Shown here: positions 25,202 through 38,264 of the stretch, in pieces
Layout: every line of letters starts with the position of its first letter
Numbering within the stretch: the stretch's first letter is position 1
From: Microbulbifer celer
Lineage (GTDB): Bacteria; Pseudomonadota; Gammaproteobacteria; Pseudomonadales; Cellvibrionaceae
NCBI RefSeq assembly: GCF_020991125.1
Contig: NZ_CP087715.1
Coordinates: forward strand, 3,587,001 to 3,651,000
Length of the DNA stretch: 64,000 nt
Reading direction: 5' to 3'
Translations under genes and position numbers: made by a program
Notes under the pieces: model-generated
What the model saw: the letters and a program-made list of their open reading frames with translations, nothing else
Told to the model about the DNA's origin: nothing
The model's database searches: none

Positions 25202-25320
25202 TTATAACGCCGAGCTCTAGGGCAGACCACGCTATGTGCCTTTTATGCGAAAATGCGAGCGTATCGAGTCGCATAAAAGGTGCATAGCGTGGGATGTCCC
25301 TCAGGAGCGAATTGTTAGAG
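25202..25320 (-). repeat. attC site (119 bp)
   Basis: Cores TTATAAC and GTTAGAG, inner arms CTATGTGCCTTTTATGCG / CGCATAAAAGGTGCATAG, centre GAAAATGCGAGCG. Same type as the site at 32497-32615. Confidence 0.85.
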
Positions 25321-25599
25321 CTAGACCTCGCCGCGGCTGAAATCTTTGATTTGATCTCCGAAAATAGAGGCCGCCTCCGTTTCTAGGCGCTCTTTCAAGC
25401 CGACAACCTCCAAGCAATCATTGCCAGCATCAGCAGCTTCATCTTCATCTTCATCTTCATCTTCATCTTCATCTTCATCTTCATCAGTAGAGTTCTCTGC
25501 TATATCCTTTAAGCGCTGAATTTCTCTTGAAAGAGACTCTAAAACGACCCTGGTTTCCCAGTCTAAAAGTGAAGTTTTAAGCTCTCGTAGAACACTCAT
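25321..25599 (-). CDS. Small acidic protein with (Glu-Asp)n repeat (cassette)
   Basis: 92 residues, unrecognised. N-terminal amphipathic helix (LDWETRVVLESLSREIQRLK), an acidic run of alternating Glu and Asp encoded by eight perfect TTCATC repeats (25438-25485), then LEVVGLKERLETEAASIFGD. No signal or TM segment. Its attC core (GTTAGAG) should recur upstream of the start but does not; an IS3-family element lies 61 nt upstream instead, so the cassette's 5' end was deleted. Confidence 0.7.
   Translation of the reverse strand: MSVLRELKTSLLDWETRVVLESLSREIQRLKDIAENSTDEDEDEDEDEDEDEDEAADAGNDCLEVVGLKERLETEAASIFGDQIKDFSRGEV
25438..25485. repeat. Hexanucleotide microsatellite (TTCATC)8
   Basis: Eight perfect tandem copies inside the 92-residue gene, giving alternating acidic residues. 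Unit length is a multiple of three, so slippage would change protein length without shifting the frame. Confidence 0.95.
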
Positions 25600-25668
25600 T
25601 ATGAAACCTGCTTCTTAAATACCTTTTGACACTTCATGGCCAATTTAGAAAGAAGCCCCTTGTAGTGG

Positions 25669-26846
<1,178 letters not shown>

Positions 26847-26918
26847 TAATTCACCTGATCTCGTTGAGCATGATAATATCACTCAAAGTCAGGTGGCCAA
26901 ATTCAGTGTGCCACTACA

Positions 26919-27024
26919 GCGCTCACCGGCGGACAATGCTAAGCACCTTTGTGCGAAAATGGGAGCGCAGCGACCAGCACAAAGGTGCTTAGCGTTGGCC
27001 GTCCGGTGCAGCGCTTGGTTAGCC
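26919..27024 (-). repeat. attC site truncated by the IS
   Basis: Lacks the left core (TAACGCC is missing) and begins at GCGCTCACCGGCGG directly after the IS end; the rest, with arms GCTAAGCACCTTTGTGCG / CAGCACAAAGGTGCTTAGC and core GTTAGCC, is intact. The core matches GGCTAAC at 27357. Confidence 0.85.
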
Positions 27025-27027
27025 ACG

Positions 27028-27327
27028 CTACTTGAACCAGCGCTCATACAGAACCGTATGGCAGCGCGCTGCTATGCAGCCGAACACCCATATTAAAACA
27101 CCGAAGAAACCAATTAGAGTCCAAACACCCAGCGCCACAAGGGAGAACCCATCCTTGTTTGTCGCGTCTATAGCTTGCGGCAAAACATCCTTAATCATTA
27201 GACCCCAGTAACCCGCGACCATGAAAGATGCGGCGCCAATTATTACTGCCCATACACTTTTCAGGCTCGAAAACGACTTTCTTTCTTTTTCCTTGGTGCC
27301 GCCAATTGCTGAATTTTCAAAACTCAT
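27028..27327 (-). CDS. Unknown two-TM membrane protein (cassette)
   Basis: 99 residues, not recognised. Charged N-terminus (GGTKEKERKSFSSLK), then two TM helices (about residues 25-45 and 62-84) and a short cytoplasmic tail. Start at MSFENS, with GGAG upstream; the longer open frame is a translation of the attC site and was rejected. Cassette cores GTTAGCC match at both ends. Confidence 0.65.
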   Translation of the reverse strand: MSFENSAIGGTKEKERKSFSSLKSVWAVIIGAASFMVAGYWGLMIKDVLPQAIDATNKDGFSLVALGVWTLIGFFGVLIWVFGCIAARCHTVLYERWFK

Positions 27328-27356
27328 AATCAATCTCCATATTTTGGCTTTTGGGT

Positions 27357-27475
27357 GGCTAACGCCGCGCTCAGGGGCGGCTAAATTTGTGTGCTTGATT
27401 GCGCAAAAATGGGAGCGGAGCGACCGCGCAATAAAGTGCGCAAAGTTAGCCGTCCGCTGCAGCGCTTGGTTAGTT
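27357..27475 (-). repeat. attC site (119 bp)
   Basis: Cores GGCTAAC and GTTAGTT; central block GCGCAAAAATGGGAGCGGAG and arms CTAAATTTGTG / CAAAGTTAG. Boundary between the 27028 and 27470 cassettes. Confidence 0.88.
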
Positions 27476-27946
27476 GCGATCAAGGCCTAGTGGTATGCTG
27501 TTTACTTGATCAGCATACGCGTTTCTAAAACTAAACTGCCCCAGAAGACCAGATCCGCCGTTTATCAGCTTGAGGAACATGGCAGCATGGGAGTACAACC
27601 TTCTGTCTTTGCTTCTGCATGATAAATTTAGATAACCCTCCCAATACTCCCCGACGAGATTGTAATCAATATTCAACTTGCGCTCTGAAGATACAAAATT
27701 AAACTGCATGGACCCCGTTATCTTGTGGGCATTTTGACTCAATACAACTGAAAACGTACTTACGCTTTCAGAATCTTCATCTCGATACTCCGCGTACCAA
27801 CTTCCAGAAATGTCAGCTCCTTGATACCGAAACCCTTGATACCAAGGAATGATTATTTTCACCCAAAATTCTTTAACCAGAAAGATAAGGCATGCGGTAA
27901 GCACACCAGATAAGACACCGATCAGAATCGTCTCTTGAATGCTCAT
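27470..27946 (-). CDS. Unknown membrane-anchored beta-rich protein (cassette)
   Basis: 158 residues. One N-terminal TM helix (about residues 5-27, IGVLSGVLTACLIFLVKEF) followed by a beta-strand-rich domain that starts ADISGSWYAEYRDED. The layout, TM helix plus an 'ISGxW' beta domain, recalls several bacterial membrane effectors of the S-2TM-beta type, but this is a loose resemblance from memory and only one TM helix is seen. Start at the ATG with GAGAG upstream. Its TAA stop is the attC core. Confidence 0.65.
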   Translation of the reverse strand: MSIQETILIGVLSGVLTACLIFLVKEFWVKIIIPWYQGFRYQGADISGSWYAEYRDEDSESVSTFSVVLSQNAHKITGSMQFNFVSSERKLNIDYNLVGEYWEGYLNLSCRSKDRRLYSHAAMFLKLINGGSGLLGQFSFRNAYADQVNSIPLGLDRN

Positions 27947-27959
27947 ATAACTCTCATGC

Positions 27960-28079
27960 AACTAACGCCCAGCGCAGGCGCAGCCAGCGCGGAGCGCATT
28001 TTGTGTTAATGTTTGAGCGACAGCGAGTAACACAAAAGGTGCGTAGCGTTGGCTGTCGCTCTGCCGCTGTTTGTTATGC
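27960..28079 (-). repeat. attC site (120 bp, CAGCGCAGGC type)
   Basis: Cores AACTAAC and GTTATGC. The interior (CCCAGCGCAGGCGCAGCCAGC...) is nearly identical to the sites at 28541 and 31783, differing at a few bases. Confidence 0.9.
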
Positions 28080-28523
28080 ATTTGCGATACCCGAGAGCTC
28101 AGACAGAGCATCTTCAAGTGCTGCAACAAGTGCTCTATAGGTCTCAATTTTTAATGTTGTTGATTTTTGAACGGAATTATCTAAACGGGCTTTAACTGTT
28201 GCCATATTTACTTTGTATTTATGAAAAAAGAGTGTTGATTTCTCCACATCTTTGGCACTAGAAAAGCAATCAATATTTGAAGTAATTAGATCATAAAGAA
28301 AATCACCAACAACAACTTCACAATATTGTGTTTCTCCGAAAGTTGCATTATTTTTATCGAGAACAACATGATCAATAAGATCGCTCTTGATCAATTCTAG
28401 GTGTTTTACAGCCATGGATGCTATCAACTTGGATTTAGCTCTCCGCTTAAGGCAATCAATGAATTCCTTGATCGCGAGAGCAATAATGGCACCTATAAAA
28501 CCTATTAAAATTTTTTCCCACAT
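28074..28523 (-). CDS. Unknown membrane-anchored helical protein (cassette)
   Basis: 149 residues, unrecognised. One N-terminal TM helix (about 4-19, ILIGFIGAIIALAIKEF), a basic stretch (CLKRRAKSKL), then a mostly helical cytoplasmic domain. The N-terminal anchor resembles those of other small cassette proteins here, but the soluble parts differ. Its TAA stop lies in the attC core, and cores at both ends match (GTTATGC). Confidence 0.68.
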   Translation of the reverse strand: MWEKILIGFIGAIIALAIKEFIDCLKRRAKSKLIASMAVKHLELIKSDLIDHVVLDKNNATFGETQYCEVVVGDFLYDLITSNIDCFSSAKDVEKSTLFFHKYKVNMATVKARLDNSVQKSTTLKIETYRALVAALEDALSELSGIANA

Positions 28524-28540
28524 TACTTTCTATTGCCTAT

Positions 28541-28660
28541 GCATAACGCCCAGCGCAGGCGCAGCCAGCGCGGAGCATATTTTGTGTTAATGTTTGAGCG
28601 CCAGCGAGTAACACAAAAGGTGCGTAGCGTTGGCTGTCGCTCTGCCGCTGATTGTTAAGT
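28541..28660 (-). repeat. attC site (120 bp, CAGCGCAGGC type)
   Basis: Cores GCATAAC and GTTAAGT. Interior nearly identical to 27960-28079. Confidence 0.9.
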
Positions 28661-28665
28661 GGGGG

Positions 28666-28917
28666 CTAGCACCCACCATCTCCCCCACCTCCACAGTCTC
28701 CGCCACTACCATGTCCGCCGCTATCGCCGCCAAAATACACTCCGCCATTGGTACGTTGGTTCACACCAAATTTCACAATAACCCAAAGAATGCTAGATAT
28801 GAGAAAGCCAGTAAAGATGATTGGGGCGAAAACTGAATTGAGTGAATCATTTGAGGACAGCTCTATAAACTGCCAAGAACCTAGAAGACCCGCCAGGTTA
28901 AATATAAATGACTTCAT
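28666..28917 (-). CDS. Small membrane protein with Gly/Cys-rich tail (cassette)
   Basis: 83 residues. Two hydrophobic segments (about 2-17 and 31-51), then a tail rich in Gly with Asp, Ser, His and Cys (GGDSGGHGSGGDCGGGG and a final GC). Comparable glycine/cysteine tails occur in uncharacterised bacterial membrane proteins. ATG chosen with AAAGGAG upstream; an ATG six codons earlier overlaps the core. Cores match (GTTAAGT). Confidence 0.65.
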   Translation of the reverse strand: MKSFIFNLAGLLGSWQFIELSSNDSLNSVFAPIIFTGFLISSILWVIVKFGVNQRTNGGVYFGGDSGGHGSGGDCGGGGDGGC

Positions 28918-28933
28918 CGGTACTCCTTTACTC

Positions 28934-29050
28934 ACTTAACGCCTTGCTCAGCGGCGGCTTACTTTATGCACTTTTTGCGCAACAGTGGACGCGTAGCGGC
29001 CGCGCAAAAAGTGCATAAAGTAAGACGTCGGCTGCAGCAAATTGTTAGGC
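28934..29050 (-). repeat. attC site (117 bp)
   Basis: Cores ACTTAAC and GTTAGGC; arms CTTACTTTATGCACTTTTTGCG / CGCAAAAAGTGCATAAAGTAAG; centre ACAGTGGACGCGTAGCGG. Confidence 0.9.
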
Positions 29051-29605
29051 TTATTTTTCACTATGCGCCCGCTGCTCTAGCAATTTTTGCAAAGTTCGAC
29101 TAACTATCTTAGATGTAAGTTGATGATCTATTTGACAAGTTGTAAAGCTTGCGCTCATTAATTCAGCAGGATAGCCAATTTCAGAAGTAACTTCTTTACC
29201 TGCTTCTATAAATTCTGAAAGTAAAATATAAGAACGGCCAGAAACTACAGAATCTGCAGACTCAATATTCCTAAAATAAGGAATTTCCTGAATAGTTTTT
29301 GTCTTATCCGCATACTCCATACCTGCTTCAGCGAGATGCTTCAACTCAGACTCACTTAAGTTTTCTATTGAGACTTTATTTAAAAGAAACTCTCCGCGCT
29401 CTTGAATAGCAACTTCTCGCGCTTGGTTTTTCTGCCTCATAAAATTTTTAACATACTCGTAATCCAAAATTTCTACCACTTCTTGACTCTCGATTAAACC
29501 AAAAGGGAAGGCATAAAGTCTCTTGGTACAGTCTCGCCAAATGGTTGTTGTCGCATTCGAGGCGATCGAAACGAGTAATGTAATCGTAAAAACTAAGACT
29601 TTCAT
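29051..29605 (-). CDS. Unknown exported protein (cassette)
   Basis: 184 residues with a signal peptide (MKVLVFTITLLVSIASNA). The mature part is mixed charged and mostly helical, with two cysteines (WRDCTKRLY early, TTCQIDH late) that could form a disulphide. No family recognised. Stop codon lies directly next to the attC core; both cores are GTTAGGC. Confidence 0.7.
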   Translation of the reverse strand: MKVLVFTITLLVSIASNATTTIWRDCTKRLYAFPFGLIESQEVVEILDYEYVKNFMRQKNQAREVAIQERGEFLLNKVSIENLSESELKHLAEAGMEYADKTKTIQEIPYFRNIESADSVVSGRSYILLSEFIEAGKEVTSEIGYPAELMSASFTTCQIDHQLTSKIVSRTLQKLLEQRAHSEK

Positions 29606-29612
29606 CGATAGA

Positions 29613-29731
29613 GCCTAACGCCGCGCACAGGGGCGGCTTACTTTATGCGCGTTTTGCGCGAAAATGGGAGCGCAGCGACCAGCGCAAGACGTGCATAAAG
29701 TAAGCCGTCCCTTTGCTGCGCTTTGTTAGGC
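29613..29731 (-). repeat. attC site (119 bp)
   Basis: Cores GCCTAAC and GTTAGGC, the best match in the array to the RYYYAAC/GTTRRRY consensus. Arms CTTACTTTATGCGCG / CGTGCATAAAGTAAG; centre GAAAATGGGAGCGCAGCGACC. Confidence 0.93.
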
Positions 29732-30103
29732 AGCGGTGCCAGAGTGCGCTGCTATAACCTGCCATTGCCCAGTATCCTTTGACCAAACGCGAGTAAATGT
29801 AAAGTTCCCGCCAGCTGGCTTACCTGAATATGTACCTTCTATATTTGCTTTAACGGATACAACAGCTGTATTTTGGCCACTTAGCAATATCTTTTGATCG
29901 CTTAATTCTATCGATGTTATCTTAAGTGAGCCACTTTCATGCGCCTCTAGATCCATACTTTTATTCAAGCGTTGGCCGAAGTGATTAGTGAAAATTAGGT
30001 TTTCAGCCAAATATTTATTGAGGCTATTTACATCTGAAGAAAGCATTGCTACGCGAAGATTTTCCTCTTCCTTCATTACTTCCGCTTCTAGAATTTCGCT
30101 CAT
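29726..30103 (-). CDS. NTF2-like / DUF4440 protein (cassette)
   Basis: 125 residues of the NTF2-like (DUF4440, SnoaL-like) fold: LRVAMLSSDVNSLNKYLAENLIF helix-strand at the N-terminus and TFTRVWSKDTGQWQVIAAHS at the C-terminus, typical of the family. Such proteins bind small molecules or isomerise them; the substrate cannot be inferred. Stop TAA is in the attC core; both cores are GTTAGGC. Confidence 0.85.
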   Translation of the reverse strand: MSEILEAEVMKEEENLRVAMLSSDVNSLNKYLAENLIFTNHFGQRLNKSMDLEAHESGSLKITSIELSDQKILLSGQNTAVVSVKANIEGTYSGKPAGGNFTFTRVWSKDTGQWQVIAAHSGTAA

Positions 30104-30122
30104 AAAATCATTCCTTGATTCT

Positions 30123-30194
30123 GCCTAACGCCCGCAGCACGGGCAAAATTGGAGCGCAGCGGAAATTTTGTCCCAGTGCCTGCGATTGTTATGC
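30123..30194 (-). repeat. attC site (short, 72 bp)
   Basis: Cores GCCTAAC and GTTATGC with compact arms GGGCAAAATTGGAGCGCAGCGG / AAATTTTGTCCC. Much shorter than its neighbours. Confidence 0.85.
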
Positions 30195-30659
30195 ATCATC
30201 TGCCTCGTGCTTGGCCTGCCAGAAAGATATCTGATAGTCCATCAGGTCATCTTCATTGTCTGGTACGTAGAACTCCACTATGCACGGCTTTTCAGGAAAG
30301 AGCGCTCTGAGTTTCAGCTCATAGATTTCCTTGAGAGTCTTGCCGATGACGAGCAGCTTGTCCTTCGCAATGTCGGTGCAGCCGTAGTGCTGGATATCTG
30401 CTATATGCAGATGGTTGATCACCCACTCTACGGACTTTGGCGTACTACCTTTCTGCGACTCGAACCCTCGGACAGAGTCTTTGGAGAATCCCTCCGTGAA
30501 TATGTAGTCCTCGAACTCGACGAAATTTGGCCAAAATATGGATGCGTAACCTACAGCGAGCTTAAAGTTGCCTTCACAGCCTACCCATGACTCAAGGTCA
30601 ATTCCTTTCCCACTATTCCATGCCGCCAATTCGTCTTTCATGCTTTCTGGTATTTCCAT
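30189..30659 (-). CDS. Unknown soluble protein (cassette)
   Basis: 156 residues, no signal or TM. Contains a conserved-looking block LESWVGCEGNFKLAVGYASI followed by FWPNFVEFEDYIF, and later IADIQHYGCTDI. This reads like a family found in environmental cassettes but I cannot name it or give a function. Stop TAA is in the attC core; both cores are GTTATGC. Confidence 0.68.
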   Translation of the reverse strand: MEIPESMKDELAAWNSGKGIDLESWVGCEGNFKLAVGYASIFWPNFVEFEDYIFTEGFSKDSVRGFESQKGSTPKSVEWVINHLHIADIQHYGCTDIAKDKLLVIGKTLKEIYELKLRALFPEKPCIVEFYVPDNEDDLMDYQISFWQAKHEADDA

Positions 30660-30669
30660 GATCCCTCAT

Positions 30670-30813
30670 GCATAACGCCCGCAACAGGGGCGACCAATGC
30701 TATGCACGTTTTGTGCGAAACTGGGAGCGCAGCGACCCGCACAAAATGTGCATAGCGTTGGGCGTCCCGCGGAGGCCCGAAGGGCCGGAGCTTACTGCTT
30801 GCGCTTGTTAAGT
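30670..30813 (-). repeat. attC site (144 bp, long type)
   Basis: Cores GCATAAC and GTTAAGT. Long type with CAATGCTATGCACGTTTTGTG / CACAAAATGTGCATAGCGTTG arms and an extra CGCGGAGGCCCGAAGGGCCGGAGC hairpin. Nearly identical to 32973-33116. Confidence 0.9.
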
Positions 30814-31187
30814 TTTGGGTGTACCTGGGACTCATCATACTGCCTGTTGAAGCAATCCTGAAACTGGCTGTACTCAATCCCCTCTGTTTTAAGAAGCTCC
30901 ATCATTGAACACTGTGTATATAGAGTGGCAGCCTTCTCAATCTCATTTGCTGATGATTTGCTTGATAGATTAGAAAGCTCGTTTTCAACACAAGATTTAG
31001 AGCTTCTTACCACGTAATCTATACACTGCTTAGACTCAAACTCAATTCCTGGCTTTATACATGCCAAGAAATTTTTATTTCCTTCGCAGAAGTAACTTGC
31101 AGATTTCTCAGTTACTACATTTATCTCTACTGCCGTAGAGGTTAAGGGAATTGCTATCATGAGAATCAGTATATTTACGAACTTCAT
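30792..31187 (-). CDS. Unknown exported cysteine-containing protein (cassette)
   Basis: 131 residues. Signal peptide MKFVNILILMIAIPLTSTA, then a mature helical part with six cysteines (FCEGN, ACIKPG, QCIDYV, SCVENE, QCSMME, DCFNRQ) at spacings that could form three disulphides. The C-terminus is basic and extends into the attC interior (stop at 30792), unlike the other cassettes where the stop is in the core. Confidence 0.7.
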   Translation of the reverse strand: MKFVNILILMIAIPLTSTAVEINVVTEKSASYFCEGNKNFLACIKPGIEFESKQCIDYVVRSSKSCVENELSNLSSKSSANEIEKAATLYTQCSMMELLKTEGIEYSQFQDCFNRQYDESQVHPKLNKRKQ

Positions 31188-31202
31188 ATTTACCTCGTGG
31201 AA

Positions 31203-31319
31203 ACTTAACGCCGCAATCAGTCGCGGCTTACTTTGTGCGCTTTTTGCACGAAAATGGGAGCGCAGCGACCGTGCAAAAAGTGCACAAAGTAAGCCGTCGG
31301 CTGCATTGCTTTGTTAGCA
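31203..31319 (-). repeat. attC site (117 bp)
   Basis: Cores ACTTAAC and GTTAGCA; arms CTTACTTTGTGCGCTTTTTGCACG / CGTGCAAAAAGTGCACAAAGTAAG. Confidence 0.9.
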
Positions 31320-31769
31320 CTGACGCTGCCTATTTTCTTTGTTTAAGTCTTTGATGCCCGGAGCATTAGCCACAAGCTTTTTTCCTAAAGCATTGGGTAA
31401 TCCGATGAATAGGGTTGCACTACTATCCCAGCATACAATTTCAAACTGGGAATCTTGAAGCTGTTTTTCTGGCTCCCCTTCCCAGAACTCGGGATTTCCA
31501 TCTGCAAATGGTTTGTCTGTGGTAAATGGCTCAGTTCCTTTTGGAAATGCTGAAAGTACAGACCAAACAAACTGATAGTCAAATTCTTTAAGCTTTGCGG
31601 TTAGCTCTTCACCAAGCACCCATGAGGGATCATCCAGCTCTGGCCAAGCTCCTTCTATATCGGAGATATGCCAATCATAATTTTTTAGATCGATTTCAAG
31701 CCAACGAGCCACATCAGTCATGCTCGTATAGAAATCAACTTCCGATGTGTTTTCCTGTATGTAGTTCAT
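31314..31769 (-). CDS. Unknown soluble acidic protein (cassette)
   Basis: 151 residues, acidic and aromatic-rich, no signal or TM. Contains VARWLEIDLKNYDWHISDIEG, DDPSWVLGEEL and FADGNPEFWEGEPEKQLQDS. The mix of Trp and acidic residues suggests a protein-binding role such as immunity proteins have, but that is a guess; no family is recognised. Stop TAA is in the attC core; both cores are GTTAGCA. Confidence 0.68.
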   Translation of the reverse strand: MNYIQENTSEVDFYTSMTDVARWLEIDLKNYDWHISDIEGAWPELDDPSWVLGEELTAKLKEFDYQFVWSVLSAFPKGTEPFTTDKPFADGNPEFWEGEPEKQLQDSQFEIVCWDSSATLFIGLPNALGKKLVANAPGIKDLNKENRQRQC

Positions 31770-31782
31770 GGTTCGTTTTGAG

Positions 31783-31902
31783 TGCTAACGCCCAGCGCAG
31801 GCGCAGCCAGCGCGGAGCGCATTTTGTGTTAATGTTTGAGCGCCAGCGAGTAACACAAAAGGTGCGTAGCGTTGACTGTCGCTCTGCCGCTGTTTGTTAA
31901 GC
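31783..31902 (-). repeat. attC site (120 bp, CAGCGCAGGC type)
   Basis: Cores TGCTAAC and GTTAAGC. Interior nearly identical to 27960 and 28541 although these sites are not neighbours. Confidence 0.9.
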
Positions 31903-32478
31903 ACGGTGACGGTACTCCACCTTGGTCCCCACAATGTGGTCATGGGCGCATCGCTTATCTTTTCTAAAAATTAACAACTTATTGATTAAGTCCAATGGGG
32001 AAAGGATTGCAAAAATTATTTTTACCACTGGCCGATATAGGATTAGTGTATTGAACTTGGGGATTTCTCCCTCTGAATCTCTGATTGAAATTCCGACTAA
32101 TTTTTTTCCAATCGTTTGGCCATAATCGATCAAAAGATAGCCGTTAAGAACTAAAAATACTAAATAGCTATAAATTAACGCAAAGACAGGGTATAGAATT
32201 GGGTTGCTCTCTGCATATTGTGGTCCGAAAAAAATTGCAACAGGAATAAATGAGAGCGCAATAATGGTTCCATCAATAATTGCCGCCAGCAATCGTTCAC
32301 CTCTACCCGCAACTCCAACTTTTGGAACAGGAATCTCTTCTGGGTGGGATAACTTTCTTTGATTTATACAATCTAGAATGAATTTGGCTCTGTCGGGGTA
32401 AGACTTTTTATTTACACCAAAGTACGCTTCATTCAGTTCTTGCAAATTGTAACTTTTAAAATCTGGACAATTGTTCAT
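31897..32478 (-). CDS. RDD family membrane protein with N-terminal YNLQEL...YPDRAK module (cassette)
   Basis: 193 residues. The first ~40 (FKSYNLQELNEAYFGVN, YPDRAKFILDCI) repeat the module of the 24770 gene. An RDD domain follows: VAGRGERLLAAIIDGTIIAL, a second TM pair, and DYGQTIGKKLVGISI, typical of the family. About four TM segments. RDD proteins are poorly characterised; some act in sodium/proton exchange. Stop TAA is in the attC core; both cores are GTTAAGC. Confidence 0.85.
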   Translation of the reverse strand: MNNCPDFKSYNLQELNEAYFGVNKKSYPDRAKFILDCINQRKLSHPEEIPVPKVGVAGRGERLLAAIIDGTIIALSFIPVAIFFGPQYAESNPILYPVFALIYSYLVFLVLNGYLLIDYGQTIGKKLVGISIRDSEGEIPKFNTLILYRPVVKIIFAILSPLDLINKLLIFRKDKRCAHDHIVGTKVEYRHRA

Positions 32479-32496
32479 TGCTACCTACTAATTATT

Positions 32497-32615
32497 GCTT
32501 AACGCCGAGCTCTGGGGCAGCCTGCTTTATGCGGCTTTTATGCGAAAATGCGAGCGTAGCGAGCCGCATAAAAGGTGCATAAAGTAGGCTGTCCCTCAGC
32601 AGCGAATTGTTAGTT
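32497..32615 (-). repeat. attC site (119 bp)
   Basis: Cores GCTTAAC and GTTAGTT; same type as 25202-25320 (GAGCTCTGGGGCAG, GAAAATGCGAGCG, TCCCTCAGCAGCGAATT). Both sites serve cassettes neighbouring the YxLQEL-module genes. Confidence 0.9.
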
Positions 32616-32620
32616 GCTGG

Positions 32621-32968
32621 CTACCTGAACTGTGCTTCGTAGGCAGCAACATGTGCAGGAAACAATTGATTGTATACCGAGCTATCTATGCCGAGAACAT
32701 TGACATATATGGATAACTCGCCCATATCTTTGGAGTAATCTTCAATCCCTATACCGCCGCTCGGCTCGAGAGTTACCCCAGATTCTGAAATCACAGTTAA
32801 CTTCAGCTCCGAAATTCTTTGGAAATCTTGGGTACAGAAGAGCTCTTGATATTTAAAGTAGTGTTCATTGGGGATTAACTCACCGAAAGCTACCCCCATC
32901 GGAGGATCTCCATTCTCCAAAAGAGTTTCTCCTAATAATTCATTTCTTGCGAATAGCTTAAATTTCAT
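32621..32968 (-). CDS. Unknown beta-rich soluble protein (cassette)
   Basis: 115 residues, no signal or TM. MKFKLFARNELLGETLLENG, then PPMGVAFGELIP and LEPSGGIGIEDYS suggest a small beta-sandwich-like protein; not recognised. The start codon lies only a few nucleotides after the cassette core (GTTAGTTGC), so ribosome binding would depend on the attC-proximal sequence. Both cores are GTTAGTT. Confidence 0.68.
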   Translation of the reverse strand: MKFKLFARNELLGETLLENGDPPMGVAFGELIPNEHYFKYQELFCTQDFQRISELKLTVISESGVTLEPSGGIGIEDYSKDMGELSIYVNVLGIDSSVYNQLFPAHVAAYEAQFR

Positions 32969-32972
32969 GTGC

Positions 32973-33116
32973 AACTAACGCCCGCAACAGGGGCGACCAA
33001 TGCTATGCACATTTTGTGCGAAATTGGGAGCGCAGCGACCCGCACAAAATGTGCATAGCGTTGGGCGTCCCGCGGAGGCCCGAAGGGCCGGAGCATCCTG
33101 CTTGCGTTTGTTAAGC
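32973..33116 (-). repeat. attC site (144 bp, long type)
   Basis: Cores AACTAAC and GTTAAGC; nearly identical interior to 30670-30813, including the extra CGGAGGCCCGAAGGGCCGGAG hairpin. Confidence 0.9.
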
Positions 33117-33121
33117 ATTTA

Positions 33122-33460
33122 CTAGGTGCCAGGGTCGATAGCAGTTATGTTTTCAGCACTTTTTAGAATTTTTTCCAGCTGCTTTGAATCTAAGCCTTTT
33201 GCGTGAATCACTTTTTTGTCTTTTGTTTGGATGATAATTTCACGGCTATTTTTAACCTTTAAGAACGCAATTATGACAGATGCCAACGATACCCACATGG
33301 ACGCGTTTACGATTACATCGATTGCTCCCGAGGACGCCATAACTGCGCCAGAGCGATTCTCTGTAATTCTGTATTTGACATTATTCTCGTTGAGCAGAGT
33401 AAGGATTGGACCAAAGCTCTTTTTGAATACATTTATTGGCACACATTCAATGGTTTCCAT
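33122..33460 (-). CDS. Small membrane protein resembling EACC1-type conflict-system components (cassette)
   Basis: 112 residues: a soluble N-terminal half (FGPILTLLNENNVKYRI), a TM helix (about residues 49-68, IVNASMWVSLASVIIAFLK), and a small beta-helix tail (REIIIQTKDKKVIHAKGLD, then QLEKILKS). The order short N-domain, TM, basic residue, two strands and a helix is like effector-associated constant component 1 (EACC1) proteins of predicted conflict systems, but no partner genes are present. Family assignment is tentative. Both cores are GTTAAGC. Confidence 0.6.
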   Translation of the reverse strand: METIECVPINVFKKSFGPILTLLNENNVKYRITENRSGAVMASSGAIDVIVNASMWVSLASVIIAFLKVKNSREIIIQTKDKKVIHAKGLDSKQLEKILKSAENITAIDPGT

Positions 33461-33478
33461 CAGTACTCTCCTTCAGAT

Positions 33479-33595
33479 GCTTAACGCCGCAATCAGCCGC
33501 GGCTTACTTTGTGTGCTTTTTGCACGATAATGGGAGCGCAGCGACCGTGCAAAAGGTGCACAAAGTAAGACGTCGGCTGCATTGCTTGGTTATGC
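33479..33595 (-). repeat. attC site (117 bp)
   Basis: Cores GCTTAAC and GTTATGC; arms CTTACTTTGTGTGCTTTTTGCACG / CGTGCAAAAGGTGCACAAAGTAAG. Confidence 0.9.
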
Positions 33596-34093
33596 CGGAC
33601 CAGGGCTACTGAGGTCCACCGGATAACCCGAGAGTATTTCAACATACTCGCTCTCTGCGCCTAATTTTACGAAAATTGAAATGCGAGCCTCTTTTACACC
33701 CGGACCCGGCTTTTCAAACTTGCTGCTTATATTTAGATCAAAGTTTCTAGAATGAGGATTTCTTTCAAGATAGCTCTTAAACAACGCGTAATCCCGCAAG
33801 CCTTGATCGGACAACTTTAATTCATAGATATTAGTATTTCCGATTTTCTCTTTTTCCTCATAAATTAGAGGAAACGAGAAAGCTCCATCTGGAAACGATA
33901 ATTCAAGGCTGTTACCTATTTCAGACAACTCAAGTCCACCATCAACCTTAGCCCGAGCTTTAATTTCCACAGCATCGACATAGCGCAACTCTTCAATACT
34001 AAAGGAACGATACTCCAAAATTGTAGACAGGGGAACGTGTGCGCACGCTCCCAGAAATACAGTGATTGCCGCAACCAATATAATTTTTTTCAT
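33590..34093 (-). CDS. Unknown lipoprotein (cassette)
   Basis: 167 residues with a lipoprotein signal: MKKIILVAAITVFLGAC, lipobox LGAC, cysteine at 17, followed by AHVPLS. The mature part is beta-rich (LELSFPDGAFSFPLIYEE, FDLNISSKFEKPGPGVKEA). Residues after the cysteine do not include the Asp that signals inner-membrane retention, so an outer-membrane location is likely. Stop TAA is in the attC core; both cores are GTTATGC. Confidence 0.78.
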   Translation of the reverse strand: MKKIILVAAITVFLGACAHVPLSTILEYRSFSIEELRYVDAVEIKARAKVDGGLELSEIGNSLELSFPDGAFSFPLIYEEKEKIGNTNIYELKLSDQGLRDYALFKSYLERNPHSRNFDLNISSKFEKPGPGVKEARISIFVKLGAESEYVEILSGYPVDLSSPGPA

Positions 34094-34103
34094 AACTCTC
34101 TTG

Positions 34104-34222
34104 GCATAACGCCGCGCTCAGCCGCAGCTTACTTTGGGCGCTTTGTTGCGCGAAAATAGGAGCGTAGCGACTGCGCAACAAAGTGCCCAAAGTAAGATGT
34201 CGGTTGCAGCGCCTGGTTATGG
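34104..34222 (-). repeat. attC site (119 bp)
   Basis: Cores GCATAAC and GTTATGG; arms CTTACTTTGGGCGCTTTGTTGCGCG / CGCAACAAAGTGCCCAAAGTAAG. Confidence 0.9.
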
Positions 34223-34487
34223 CTGACGCGCTCCGAGGTACCTACGGGCACCGAATGCGCCGAAGCTCCTTAAAATGAGGAAAGAACTTCCAGCTTCCCC
34301 CAACCAATTATTCTCTTACTGGCACTCCACGTTACTGCAGCGGAGTTGCCGCGGTTCCTACGGACTTAAACGAAAGCACTAGGAACGAAACTGCTTGATT
34401 TTATCATGACAAATAGCCAAATACTGCGAGCCAAAGCAGTGCTCATAATTACACGCTGGTACAGACAACCATTTTTACGGGCCGGCA
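34223..34487 (-). other. Gene-less integron cassette 1 (about 265 bp body)
   Basis: Bounded by matching cores: GTTATGG at 34216 and CCATAAC at 34488. No reading frame of useful length with a start and ribosome-binding site is found on either strand. It may hold a promoter, a small RNA, or a decayed gene. Contains CGAGGTACCTACGGGCACCG and GCGGTTCCTACGGACTTAAACG, which share a short CCTACGG motif. Confidence 0.7.
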
Positions 34488-34604
34488 CCATAACGCCGCG
34501 CTCAGGGGCGGCTTACGCTGTGCGCATTTTGCGCGAAAATGGGAGCGTAGCGACCGCGCAAAAGGTGCACAGCGTAAGACGTCCCCTGCAGCGCTTTGTT
34601 AGCG
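34488..34604 (-). repeat. attC site (117 bp)
   Basis: Cores CCATAAC and GTTAGCG; arms CTTACGCTGTGCGCATTTTGCGCG / CGCGCAAAAGGTGCACAGCGTAAG. Confidence 0.9.
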
Positions 34605-34897
34605 CGATGACGCAATGACAAACTTCGCTACATGTGCGAACTGGCCGCAACCACTTAACCCAACCGAATTACGCAGCGGGCCCAGCTTGGAATGCAAGCT
34701 TTCCGCAACCGCCGCACCGAACCTGGCAATGACTCTCAGAGCCGCTTCCAGAAAATGCTTTTAGAATCTATACCACCGAATTCTAAACGAACACATTTTG
34801 TACCAGCGTTTCAGCGATTTTACTTTGAAGCGCTGAACTTTCTGATCATTGCCGACCGCTCATTTTCTTTTTTAAAAGCGGCGACACTCATAAAAAA
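34605..34897 (-). other. Gene-less integron cassette 2 (about 293 bp body)
   Basis: Bounded by matching cores GTTAGCG (34598) and CGCTAAC (34898). The only open frame of note is on the plus strand (34692-34949) and runs into the next attC, so I do not accept it. On the cassette strand the 5' part is AT-rich (AAAAAAGAAAATGAGCGG), which could suit a promoter, but no hexamers are convincing. Confidence 0.65.
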
Positions 34898-35014
34898 CGC
34901 TAACGCCGCAATCAGCCGCGGCCAAGTTTGGGCGCTTTTTGCGCAATAATGGGAGCGCAGCGACCGCGCAAAAAGTGCGCAAAGTTGGCCGTCGGCTGCA
35001 TTGCCTGGTTAACA
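34898..35014 (-). repeat. attC site (117 bp)
   Basis: Cores CGCTAAC and GTTAACA; arms CCAAGTTTGGGCGCTTTTTGCGC / GCGCAAAAAGTGCGCAAAGTTGG. Confidence 0.9.
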
Positions 35015-35548: not shown

Positions 35549-35633
35549 TGTTAACGCCGCTAAGCACGCGCGGCTGCGAAATGGAGGCGAAGCCGCAATG
35601 TAGTAGACGTCGCCGTGACTGGCATGGTTAGGG
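35549..35633 (-). repeat. attC site (short, 85 bp)
   Basis: Cores TGTTAAC and GTTAGGG; interior GCCGCTAAGCACGCGCGGC...ATGGAGGCGAAGCCG...GTCGCCGTGACTGGCATG. The GTTAGGG core is repeated at 36273-36280 in front of the first cassette gene. Confidence 0.85.
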
Positions 35634-35644
35634 CTTTTCAGCAT

Positions 35645-36259
35645 CTAATATTTCTCATGGGTTGCCAGCGATGCTATATGCCTCACTTCATTTGCATTGC
35701 TCTTGATACGGCGAGCTTCTGACTCAAATGTTTCGATGTTGGACACACCATTTTCCTCACCAAGCTTAGTGACAGCAATGACTATGCGGAATAGCACCCA
35801 CGCTGCATCAATTGCTAGATCGACGATATTTTCTTCAATCTGAGCATCACCTGCCTCTCGATTCCTGACCTCGCCATCCCACCGAGGATTGCGAATAAAC
35901 ATTGCGGTACCTCCAAGTGGAACAAGGTATCCATGAAACAACGAGTGACGATAACTCATAAGGTCTTTTGCTGCCCCGGCCGCAACGGCGAGCACTTCAT
36001 TTGCTTTCGCGCTAAGATCCTCGCTTCCGCTGGAGAGAACACCCACCCATTTATAAGCCGACGTTTTGTCTGTTGAAGGCCTATTGCCTGCAACCTGCTC
36101 CTTTTCAAGCGCCCATACAGCACGCTCCAGATGAGATTCAAACATTCCCCATGCTACAGCGAATACACCAATTTTGTGCTGTATCTCAACAGGAATGCCA
36201 AGCTCCTGAATTTTCACGCTAACCAGTAGGGCGTTACGTGTATGCTTCGGTAGTTCCAT
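35645..36259 (-). CDS. Unknown protein with HEPN-like R-x4-H motif (first cassette)
   Basis: 204 residues, helical, no signal. N-terminal LPKHTRNALLVSVKIQELG, then FAVAWGMFESHLERAVWALEKE and LMSYRHSLFHGYLVPLG. RHSLFH fits the R-x4-6-H motif of HEPN ribonuclease-type domains, and the preceding helix pattern is compatible; this is a motif-level observation only. Start ATG follows AGGAGG. The cassette opens with TTAGGGC at 36279, matching its own attC core, so it is the cassette nearest the integration end. Confidence 0.7.
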   Translation of the reverse strand: MELPKHTRNALLVSVKIQELGIPVEIQHKIGVFAVAWGMFESHLERAVWALEKEQVAGNRPSTDKTSAYKWVGVLSSGSEDLSAKANEVLAVAAGAAKDLMSYRHSLFHGYLVPLGGTAMFIRNPRWDGEVRNREAGDAQIEENIVDLAIDAAWVLFRIVIAVTKLGEENGVSNIETFESEARRIKSNANEVRHIASLATHEKY

Positions 36260-36272
36260 TGGCCCTCCTGGT

Positions 36273-36280
36273 GCCCTAAC
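36273..36280 (-). other. attI-like recombination core at the array's leading end
   Basis: GCCCTAAC on the plus strand (minus GTTAGGGC) matches the core of the cassette's own attC (35627). No attC structure lies on the far side, as expected of attI, yet no integrase gene is found beside it. It is followed outward by an AT-rich region with three boxes. Confidence 0.55.
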
Positions 36281-36297
36281 ATTTATATCGTGATGAT

Positions 36298-36360
36298 GCC
36301 TATATATAGGCACAATATCTATATATAGGAATAAATGTCTATATCTAGCCATTTATTCCT
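36298..36360. promoter_or_regulatory. AT-rich region with three CTATATATAG boxes and an 11-bp inverted repeat
   Basis: CTATATATAG occurs at 36300 and 36319, and CTATATCTAG at 36339, about 19-20 bp apart. The first is inside a perfect 14-bp palindrome (36298-36311). AGGAATAAATG (36327-36337) and CATTTATTCCT (36350-36360) form an 11-bp inverted repeat. It lies just upstream of the first cassette gene, so it may be a promoter or operator region, possibly the relic of Pc/attI. Confidence 0.55.
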
Positions 36361-36372
36361 ATGTGTAACCAT

Positions 36373-36774
36373 CTAAACTTCAATACTGAAATCAACATCT
36401 TGGCACTCGTCCACCAGTCCCTCCTTGATCCTGTGTCCAAGTCCCAGCCCAACAGCTATCGCTCTCGTGGTTATCCAGGACCGTGTACCAGGGCTGTATC
36501 TGGCACCGGCAGATTTCAGCAATTGTTGATATTCCAGCTCTCGCATAAATACTTTTACCGCAACCGCGTCGACTCGCCTTCTCGCACTGCGGCTTCTTTC
36601 ACTACTGCCCGGTGCGGCTTTGGGGCGCTCATCTACGATCAGTTCGACGGTGGTATAAATTTTTGATCCGCAATCGGACTGTCGGTAACGCACTGCGCAG
36701 AGTCTTTCCCCGTAGCGCCGTTGATACGCCTTGGATCCCCTGTCGCCAGGTTTTATTGTTTTGGTAACTTCCAT
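36373..36774 (-). CDS. Conserved protein of mobile-element type
   Basis: 133 residues. The N-terminal half (KTIKPGDRGSKAYQRRYGER, then LCAVRYRQS and YTTVELIVDERP) resembles small proteins often found in integrative elements and plasmids, function unknown. The C-terminal half is Arg/Ser-rich, then VAVKVFMRELEYQQLLKSAG. ATG with GGAGG upstream; the leader GGAGGGCAAATGGAAG is almost the same as that of the 35645 gene (GGAGGGCCAATGGAAC). No attC beside it, so probably outside the array. Confidence 0.72.
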   Translation of the reverse strand: MEVTKTIKPGDRGSKAYQRRYGERLCAVRYRQSDCGSKIYTTVELIVDERPKAAPGSSERSRSARRRVDAVAVKVFMRELEYQQLLKSAGARYSPGTRSWITTRAIAVGLGLGHRIKEGLVDECQDVDFSIEV

Positions 36775-36800
36775 TTGCCCTCCATGGCATGAACGCATTA

Positions 36801-38264
36801 TTAGATCCCGAGCTTGTCCCAGATTTCATCTATCCGCTGTGTCACTTCCGGATCCTTGACGATGGGCCGGCCCCATTCACGGGTGGTTTCCCCCTCCCAT
36901 TTATTGGTGGCATCAAATCCGATTTTTGATCCCAGGCCGGAAACCGGTGAGGCGAAGTCGAGATAGTCGATCGGGGTGTTTTCCACCATCACAGTGTCCC
37001 TTGCCGGGTCCATGCGGGTGGTCATGGCCCAGATGACGTCGTTCCAGTCTCTGGCGTTTACATCGTCGTCGGTAACGATCACGAATTTGGTGTACATAAA
37101 CTGACGCAGGAAGGACCAGACCCCCATCATCACGCGCTTGGCGTGGCCGGCGTACTGCTTCTTCATGGTGACCACCGCCAGCCGGTAGGAGCAGCCTTCT
37201 GGCGGCAGGTAGAAGTCGATGATTTCCGGGAACTGCTTGCGTAGGATGGGTACAAAGACTTCGTTCAGTGCCTCCCCCAGTACCGCGGGCTCATCCGGTG
37301 GGCGGCCGGTGTAGGTGCTGTGGTAGATGGGGTCTTTGCGGTGGGTGATTTTTTCCACGGTGAATACCGGGAAGCGGTCTACTTCGTTGTAGTAGCCGGT
37401 ATGGTCGCCGTAGGGGCCTTCGTCAGCCATGTCTTCGGGGTAGATGTAGCCTTCCAGCACATATTCCGCGCTGGCGGGTACCTGCAGGTTGCTCAGTCTG
37501 GCTTCGGCCACCTCGGTCTTGCCACCGCGCAGGAGGCCGGCGAAGGCGTATTCGGACAGGGTATCCGGCACTGGGGTGACGGCGCCGAGAATGGTGGCGG
37601 GATCGGCGCCGAGGGCGACGGCAACCGGGAAGGGTTCACCGGGGTACTGCTGCTGCCATTCCCGGAAATCCAGCGCGCCGCCGCGGTGGGAGAGCCAGCG
37701 CATGATCAGGCGATTCTTGCCGATCAACTGCATACGGTAGATGCCCAGGTTCTGGCGTTTCTTTTCCGGGCCGCGGGTGATTACCAGGGGCCAGGTGACC
37801 AGGGGCGCGGCGTCGCCGGGCCAGCAGGTCTGTATGGGCAGTTTGGTGAGGTCCACTTCATCAGCATCCAGCTCCACCTTCTGGCAGTCCGCTTTGCTGA
37901 CCACTTTGGGGCCCATGTTCATCACCTGTTTGAAGATGGGCAGTTTTTCCCAGGCGTCGCGGATGCCCTCCGGCGGCTGCGGCTCTTTCAGGAAGGCCAG
38001 CAGCTCGCCCACTTCGCGCAGCTCGGAGACGGATTCGCGCCCCATGCCGAGGGCAACCCGCTCGGGGGTGCCAAACAGATTGGCCAGTACCGGGGTGTCG
38101 TAACCGGTGGGGTTTTCAAACAGGAGCGCGGGGCCGCCGGCGCGCAGTACGCGGTCGGCAATTTCTGTCATTTCCAGGTAGGGGCTGACGGGGTGTTTGA
38201 TACGCTTCAGGAGGCCGCGCTTTTCCAGTAGCTGGATAAAGTCGCGCAGATCTTTGTATTTCAT
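36801..38264 (-). CDS. ubiD: 4-hydroxy-3-polyprenylbenzoate decarboxylase
   Basis: Prenylated-FMN-dependent decarboxylase of ubiquinone synthesis, 487 residues. Clear UbiD pattern: [20 protein letters not shown] at the start, the [25 protein letters not shown] type central block, the [12 protein letters not shown] metal/cofactor region, and WDLVMVEN-type C-terminal [16 protein letters not shown]. Needs a UbiX partner, not in this window. It borders the accessory block, so the array was inserted next to a core gene. Confidence 0.96.

Follow-up and report, generated by a model that had tools for sequence, protein, structure and literature searches.

The segment at positions 36262-36372 of the DNA analysed here is very probably, judging from sequence comparisons, a stand-alone attI-type docking site without an intI gene, which would receive gene cassettes through an IntI integrase encoded elsewhere. 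The window, i.e., the whole stretch of DNA that was analysed (64 kb), corresponds to C1:3587001-3651000 of a marine bacterium's 4.35-Mb genome, which consists of a single contig. In our best reading, the docking site would be a primary attachment site of a second kind, dedicated and secondary to the intI-linked attI. The features on which this is based, as shown by comparing the nucleotide sequences, are a cognate core, a conserved position, an architecture of four to five boxes, turnover at G|TTA, cassette exchange and linkage to a 133-aa gene.

On the minus strand, the locus consists of ubiD (36801-38264), the 133-aa gene (36373-36774), a TATA-rich stretch, the core ATG|TTAGGGC, the first cassette and 17 more attC. 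The ubiD gene is a conserved host gene which fixes the position of the docking site in the genus. The end of the 133-aa gene and the crossover are about 95 nt apart, and the mechanical ORF (36373-36798) comprises 141 aa. The attI-type core GTTAGGGC is located at 36273-36280 on the minus strand, with the crossover between 36280 (G, site) and 36279 (T, cassette), and the minus-strand sequence across the junction is ...GGCATCATCACGATATAAATG|TTAGGGCACCAGGAGGGCCAATGG. When this core was compared with those of the sister species and of other arrays, sequence identity was seen to break at G|TTA. An initial annotation had proposed that this boundary is a real recombination point, which was confirmed: the cassette start, GTTAGGGC, and arm GCCCTAAC of its own attC (35627-35634) are exactly complementary, as expected for an inserted circular cassette. 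The first cassette (35555-36279, minus strand) contains an ORF running from 36258 to 35645 (204 aa from MELPKHTRN) without any Pfam or NCBIfam match at E ≤ 0.001, and a search of 48 genomes of the genus did not find this cassette elsewhere. Its attC was read from the sequence at 35549-35634 (minus strand), with arms GCCCTAAC ... GTTAAC. The attC model located the 17 further attC of this satellite array, which has no integrase, at 25202-35014 on the minus strand and, in agreement with the initial annotation, none to the right of the boundary.

Upstream of the core, the core-proximal spacer ...CATCACGATATAAAT (36281-36298, minus strand) is followed by the box array. Box 1 (CTATATATAG, 36300-36309, with the palindrome GCCTATATATAGGC) and box 2 (CTATATATAG, 36319-36328) are exact and have their centres at -25 and -44 from the crossover, respectively. 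Box 3 (CTATATCTAG, 36339-36348) is centred at -64, and a weak fourth box (CTATGTGTAA, 36359-36368) is centred at -84 and is intact in the sister species G021 as CCACATATAGG. The TATA-rich boxes at 36300, 36319 and 36339, 19-20 bp apart, had already been pointed out and their positions were correct, but the third one has one mismatch. The 11-bp inverted repeat described with them is present (AGGAATAAATG / CATTTATTCCT), and the suggestion of an array of putative protein-binding boxes two helical turns apart was borne out as well. With at most one mismatch, CTATATATAG has three matches in the 64 kb, all of them at this site (expected 0.42, sd 0.73).

The same arrangement was observed at the other Microbulbifer docking sites, where ten-base boxes lie at about -23, -42, -62 and -81 from the crossover, frequently accompanied by an extra box near -107 or -117. 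The box centres ranged across sites from -22 to -26, -41 to -45, -61 to -64 and -80 to -85. Over 28 sites, 73 of the 97 gaps between boxes were of 19 bp (49 gaps), 20 bp (13) or 21 bp (11), and each docking site had 3-5 boxes compared with approximately 0.2 in shuffled sites. The palindrome nearest to the core showed a covariation of 0.225 versus 0.139 when shuffled, and none of 500 shuffles reached the observed value; given that kin sequences may exceed such shuffles, more weight is placed on the spacing, which remains fixed between independent loci and also in other families. This array differs from the boxes of the intI-linked attIs, 24 out of 26 of which had no TATA box of the docking-site type.

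A scan of the docking site for the sigma-70 consensus revealed no good promoter, the best match being 9/12 and lying inside the boxes, and the TTGACG..CATTCT-type promoter of the intI-linked attI was absent. The Pc-like promoter suggested by the initial annotation is thus not supported by this consensus scan. Alternatively, the box array could be an operator or boundary element governing transcription between the host operon and the cassettes, the attI-type core being a separate element. Palindromic boxes two helical turns apart do resemble a regulator array, the genes upstream of the docking sites are mostly co-directional with the cassettes, and the 133-aa gene could encode a regulator. However, the distance of the boxes from G|TTA is fixed at every locus, which ties them to the recombination site, and no terminator was found at the docking site. 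An operator is considered possible but rather unlikely, and it is compatible with the docking-site explanation.

With respect to the integrase, the genome contains only one integron integrase (C1:1001080-1002057; TIGR02249, 418 bits), which has its own attI and array. The window docking site, at 3623277, is 2.6 Mb from it, so that the earlier statement that no integrase is near was right. In the other genomes checked, docking sites were likewise far from intI or on other contigs. The docking core and the intI-linked attI core of the same genome agree at 15 of 16 nt and both end in ACGATATAAATGTTA, which is the identical part of the core-proximal spacer. The genus holds two integrase classes and two kinds of attI core, and the docking cores are of one kind or the other. 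In the five genomes in which both cores were readable, to which this comparison over 16 positions is limited, the docking core matched its own attI at 15, 13, 16, 15 and 12 positions; these include 15/16 in the genome studied here (G000) and 16/16 and 15/16 in G570 and G309, both from other families. Matches between genomes were of 7-11/16, except for the G000 core against the attI of G001 (13) and the G280 core against that of G570 (15), the G280 docking core thus being closer to the attI of G570 than to its own (15 vs 12).

Similar boxes and cores elsewhere were first detected by DNA searches, and a sequence-only model was subsequently built from 16 sites. The window site, which is one of these 16, matches the model (R1) at 36277-36333 on the minus strand with 37.3 bits. 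The model had matches in 37 of the 48 genus genomes at E ≤ 0.1 and in 25 of them at E ≤ 1e-5; at the latter threshold, matches were found in 4 of 195 genomes of the order, the genome studied here among them. Several loci recur across species: besides that of ubiD and the 133-aa gene, they include the 3' ends of a hipA-like gene and of parE, along with a few more. These genes were named from ORF reading, and ubiD alone was confirmed by a family search. According to the attC model, each of the 21 sites examined first, i.e., that of the window and 20 more fetched with their flanks, opens onto a same-strand attC array (21/21), and 12 of the 13 loci with 133-aa homologs in named genomes open onto model-detected attC. 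In a second batch, the attC model found no attC at the weaker site matches L155 and L150, the latter from another genus.

In the sister species G021, the site is 89% identical over 92 bp and stands beside the same two genes. The similarity ends at G|TTA, beyond which every cassette differs from those of the window array. The same was seen in six pairs of orthologous sites, in which the sequence on the gene side retains 82-97% identity as far as G|TTA, only the attC repeats matching on the cassette side. Since the flanks are kept and the cassette side is unmatched, the cassettes at the window spot have been replaced completely while the site stays. It was also observed that G029, a near-complete genome, has three docking sites (L020, L113 and L114), two of which were seen with the attC model to have arrays within the stretch that was fetched, and no integron integrase over the cutoff; a docking site can therefore persist without one.

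These results bear on the possibility, raised by the initial annotation, that the segment is a decayed attI, i.e., that a complete integron lost its intI and the boxes are leftover attI accessory sequence. Loss of intI is a standard proposed origin of CALINs (PMC8618304), and it is probably real in the genome studied here, in which three arrays (A, C and D) have attI-like leaders without intI. Nevertheless, the intact intI-linked attIs of the genus mostly lack TATA boxes, as indicated above, and the boxes are kept at unrelated loci and across families with no intI beside them. Moreover, the cassettes turned over fully where the flanks are up to 97% identical, and the core still matches the resident attI. 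The proposal was thus correct as to an attI-type site but not as to its decay, because the core, the box positions and the use of the site are conserved and the cassettes were fully replaced; we consider decay improbable.

The chance placement of cassettes by IntI at a genomic sequence (attG) seems highly improbable. IntI is reported to insert cassettes at genomic sites that are neither attI nor attC (Loot et al., 2024, as cited in PMC12901181 and PMC12444791) and, like the docking site, attG sites are used away from intI. However, attG sites are described in the citing papers as non-classical, the insertions showing little specificity and being spread over many loci (PMC12444791), whereas the docking site keeps its sequence, architecture and position, and the position, core and box array of the window type are maintained over the genus and beyond, by which this alternative is largely refuted. 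The least credible alternative is a general interspersed repeat standing beside cassettes by chance, since, although each genome has the boxes at several unrelated loci and beside unrelated host genes, which the initial annotation had named as the sign of such a repeat, the sites checked with the attC model nearly always head a same-strand cassette array (21/21 and 12/13, with L155 and L150 lacking attC) and few copies of boxes plus core without attC were seen; a repeat of a general kind would not show this association.

Stand-alone docking is also consistent with the cassette content of the genome, which comprises six arrays: A, B (adjoining intI), C, D, F (at the hipA docking site) and G (the window array). 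Near-identical cassettes that end at G|TTA are common to them. A 397-bp cassette (99.5% identity) occupies the first position at the hipA docking site ('ttgaataaaact|GTTAAGTGAG') and an internal one in the window array, and a 577-bp cassette (100%) opens the array at the intI-linked attI and recurs within array D. Arrays C and G have stretches of 1153 bp (99.8%) and 602 bp (99.2%) in common.

Segments of 1.20-1.30 kb that are also common to arrays proved to be insertion sequences (IS3-like and IS110-like from ORF reading) and were excluded as cassette evidence. One of them, an IS3-like element at 25658-26918 of the window with ends TGTAGTG/CACTACA, is identical to the copy in array C, and arrays A, B, D and F have other IS3- and IS110-like elements within or next to their attCs.

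Arrays A and D (L144 and L146; near 871722 and 2538521 of G000:C1) start at class-2-type attI leaders without intI, and no class-2 integrase was found in the genome despite these leaders. They probably represent a true loss of intI or copied leaders. Array C (L145, G000:C1:2346700-2350700, core near 2347480) starts at a near-complete copy of a class-1 attI leader, also without intI, which retains the accessory boxes, a TTGACC..CATTCT promoter and the core. The leaders of arrays A, C and D are like the docking site in that an attI core without intI opens the array, but they resemble intI-linked leaders (with a Pc in array C) and have no TATA boxes.

The 133-aa protein did not belong to any Pfam or NCBIfam family at E ≤ 0.001, a weak DUF5710 match (E 0.0027) being obtained for some members of its family. 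Sequence and fold searches of the PDB with a model of the protein (pLDDT 79, pTM 0.45) gave no match, and the family was not found on the plasmids or phages searched. It is present in 25 of the 48 genus genomes, and the named genomes with homologs are almost all Microbulbifer, to which genus the genome studied here was therefore assigned. Boxes and core were found within about 100 nt after the homolog in 13/13 named genomes. In Mangrovimicrobium sediminis, the homolog is away from ubiD, yet it is followed by boxes (-64, -44 and -25) and core; the attC model found no attC at this site. In a sample of 369 genomes of the class, a homolog was present in 12 genomes from other genera. In these gammaproteobacterial genera, a recognizable core followed 8 of the 12 homologs, most of them with boxes, and the spacing of about 20 bp was clearest in G570 (-84, -64 and -44) and G463 (-86, -66, -46 and -26); in G362, G407, G262 and G317, the site was partial or not recognizable. 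Hairpins similar to attC followed the homolog in G570, G309, G493, G546 and G407. In addition, an integron integrase scoring over the curated cutoff is encoded elsewhere in 11 of the 12 genomes, and that of the twelfth is broken; complete integrons occur in around 20% of gammaproteobacterial genomes (PMC8618304), a figure from a sample that differs from these 12 genomes. Docking sites without the 133-aa gene were found in five genomes (G011, G016, G026, G033 and G059), and the hipA and parE docking sites have no adjoining copy. Therefore, the protein is dispensable in cis and may be dispensable altogether.

As regards the mechanism, the distant IntI would recombine attC cassettes into the docking core in trans. 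With less confidence, we infer that a dimeric protein, which may be the 133-aa protein or IntI itself, could occupy the array of 19-21 bp along one face of the helix and, once bound to the boxes, might mark the docking site or recruit IntI to it. The 133-aa protein is the first candidate binder because its gene travels with the boxes. Also with less confidence, the cassettes would be read from the co-directional host operon and not from a Pc promoter, given that their orientation agrees with that of the upstream gene at most loci and host transcription may thus read them. There is an even chance that a putative DNA-binding protein of the 133-aa type, phased palindromic boxes and an attI-type core form a gammaproteobacterial integron module which sets up secondary, dedicated docking sites at fixed loci and brings IntI there in trans. 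If so, one integrase would run several cassette arrays.

In comparison with known attachment sites (attI1 and chromosomal attIs), the docking site shares entry at G|TTA, a fixed orientation and repeated sites upstream of the core, and its core is identical or near-identical to that of the intI-linked attI of the same genome. In contrast, it has neither an adjacent divergent intI nor any Pc-type promoter that we could find, it carries TATA-rich boxes at 19-21 bp, and it follows the 3' end of either a host gene or the 133-aa gene. As adjacency to intI is missing, it is not filed as an ordinary attI. With 17 attC plus one and no integrase nearby, the window array is a CALIN by definition (at least two attC and no integrase nearby), but not of the degraded kind, as there is no intI beside the site and cassettes were replaced between orthologous sites. 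Integrase-less arrays have been reported as "satellite sites" beside the core integron in Saccharophagus degradans (PMC2386152) and as CALINs at conserved positions in Xanthomonas, for which the available text gives no mechanism (PMC12444791). CALINs are usually accounted for as degraded integrons or off-target, stray insertions. The window array resembles those arrays in being integrase-less at a conserved chromosomal position; unlike them, it is headed by a box-bearing attI-type site, the portions available of those accounts describing no attachment site. No report on docking sites with box arrays or on the linked gene was found in the open-access library searched.

It must be noted that CALINs (2961) and complete integrons (2760) are similarly frequent among sequenced bacteria and that current integron software detects attachment sites of class 1 only (PMC9024848). 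A conserved docking layout without intI could explain why "orphan" cassette arrays exist. That CALINs can be active satellites of a single integrase, placed at fixed loci, is now a testable question, and the site model together with the 133-aa family provides a search key for attachment sites.

Finally, some traits of related sites were recorded. At ubiD-locus sites (e.g., L007, L010 and L015), the 133-aa gene overlaps at its 3' end with the farthest box, GCCTAGATGTAGACATATAG, which codes for the C-terminus of the protein (CLDVDI*). The intI-linked attIs (L022-L051, located 0-420 nt upstream of intI) have several copies each of palindromic boxes, which vary between integrons and match within one attI (GGTC..GACC, GCCAGTGGC, GCAGCTGC). 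In G061, G006, G068, G014 and G003, which lack docking sites with TATA boxes, class-1-type attI sequences were found at other loci, away from intI (L057 and L067-L070), and these are a second type of orphan attI.
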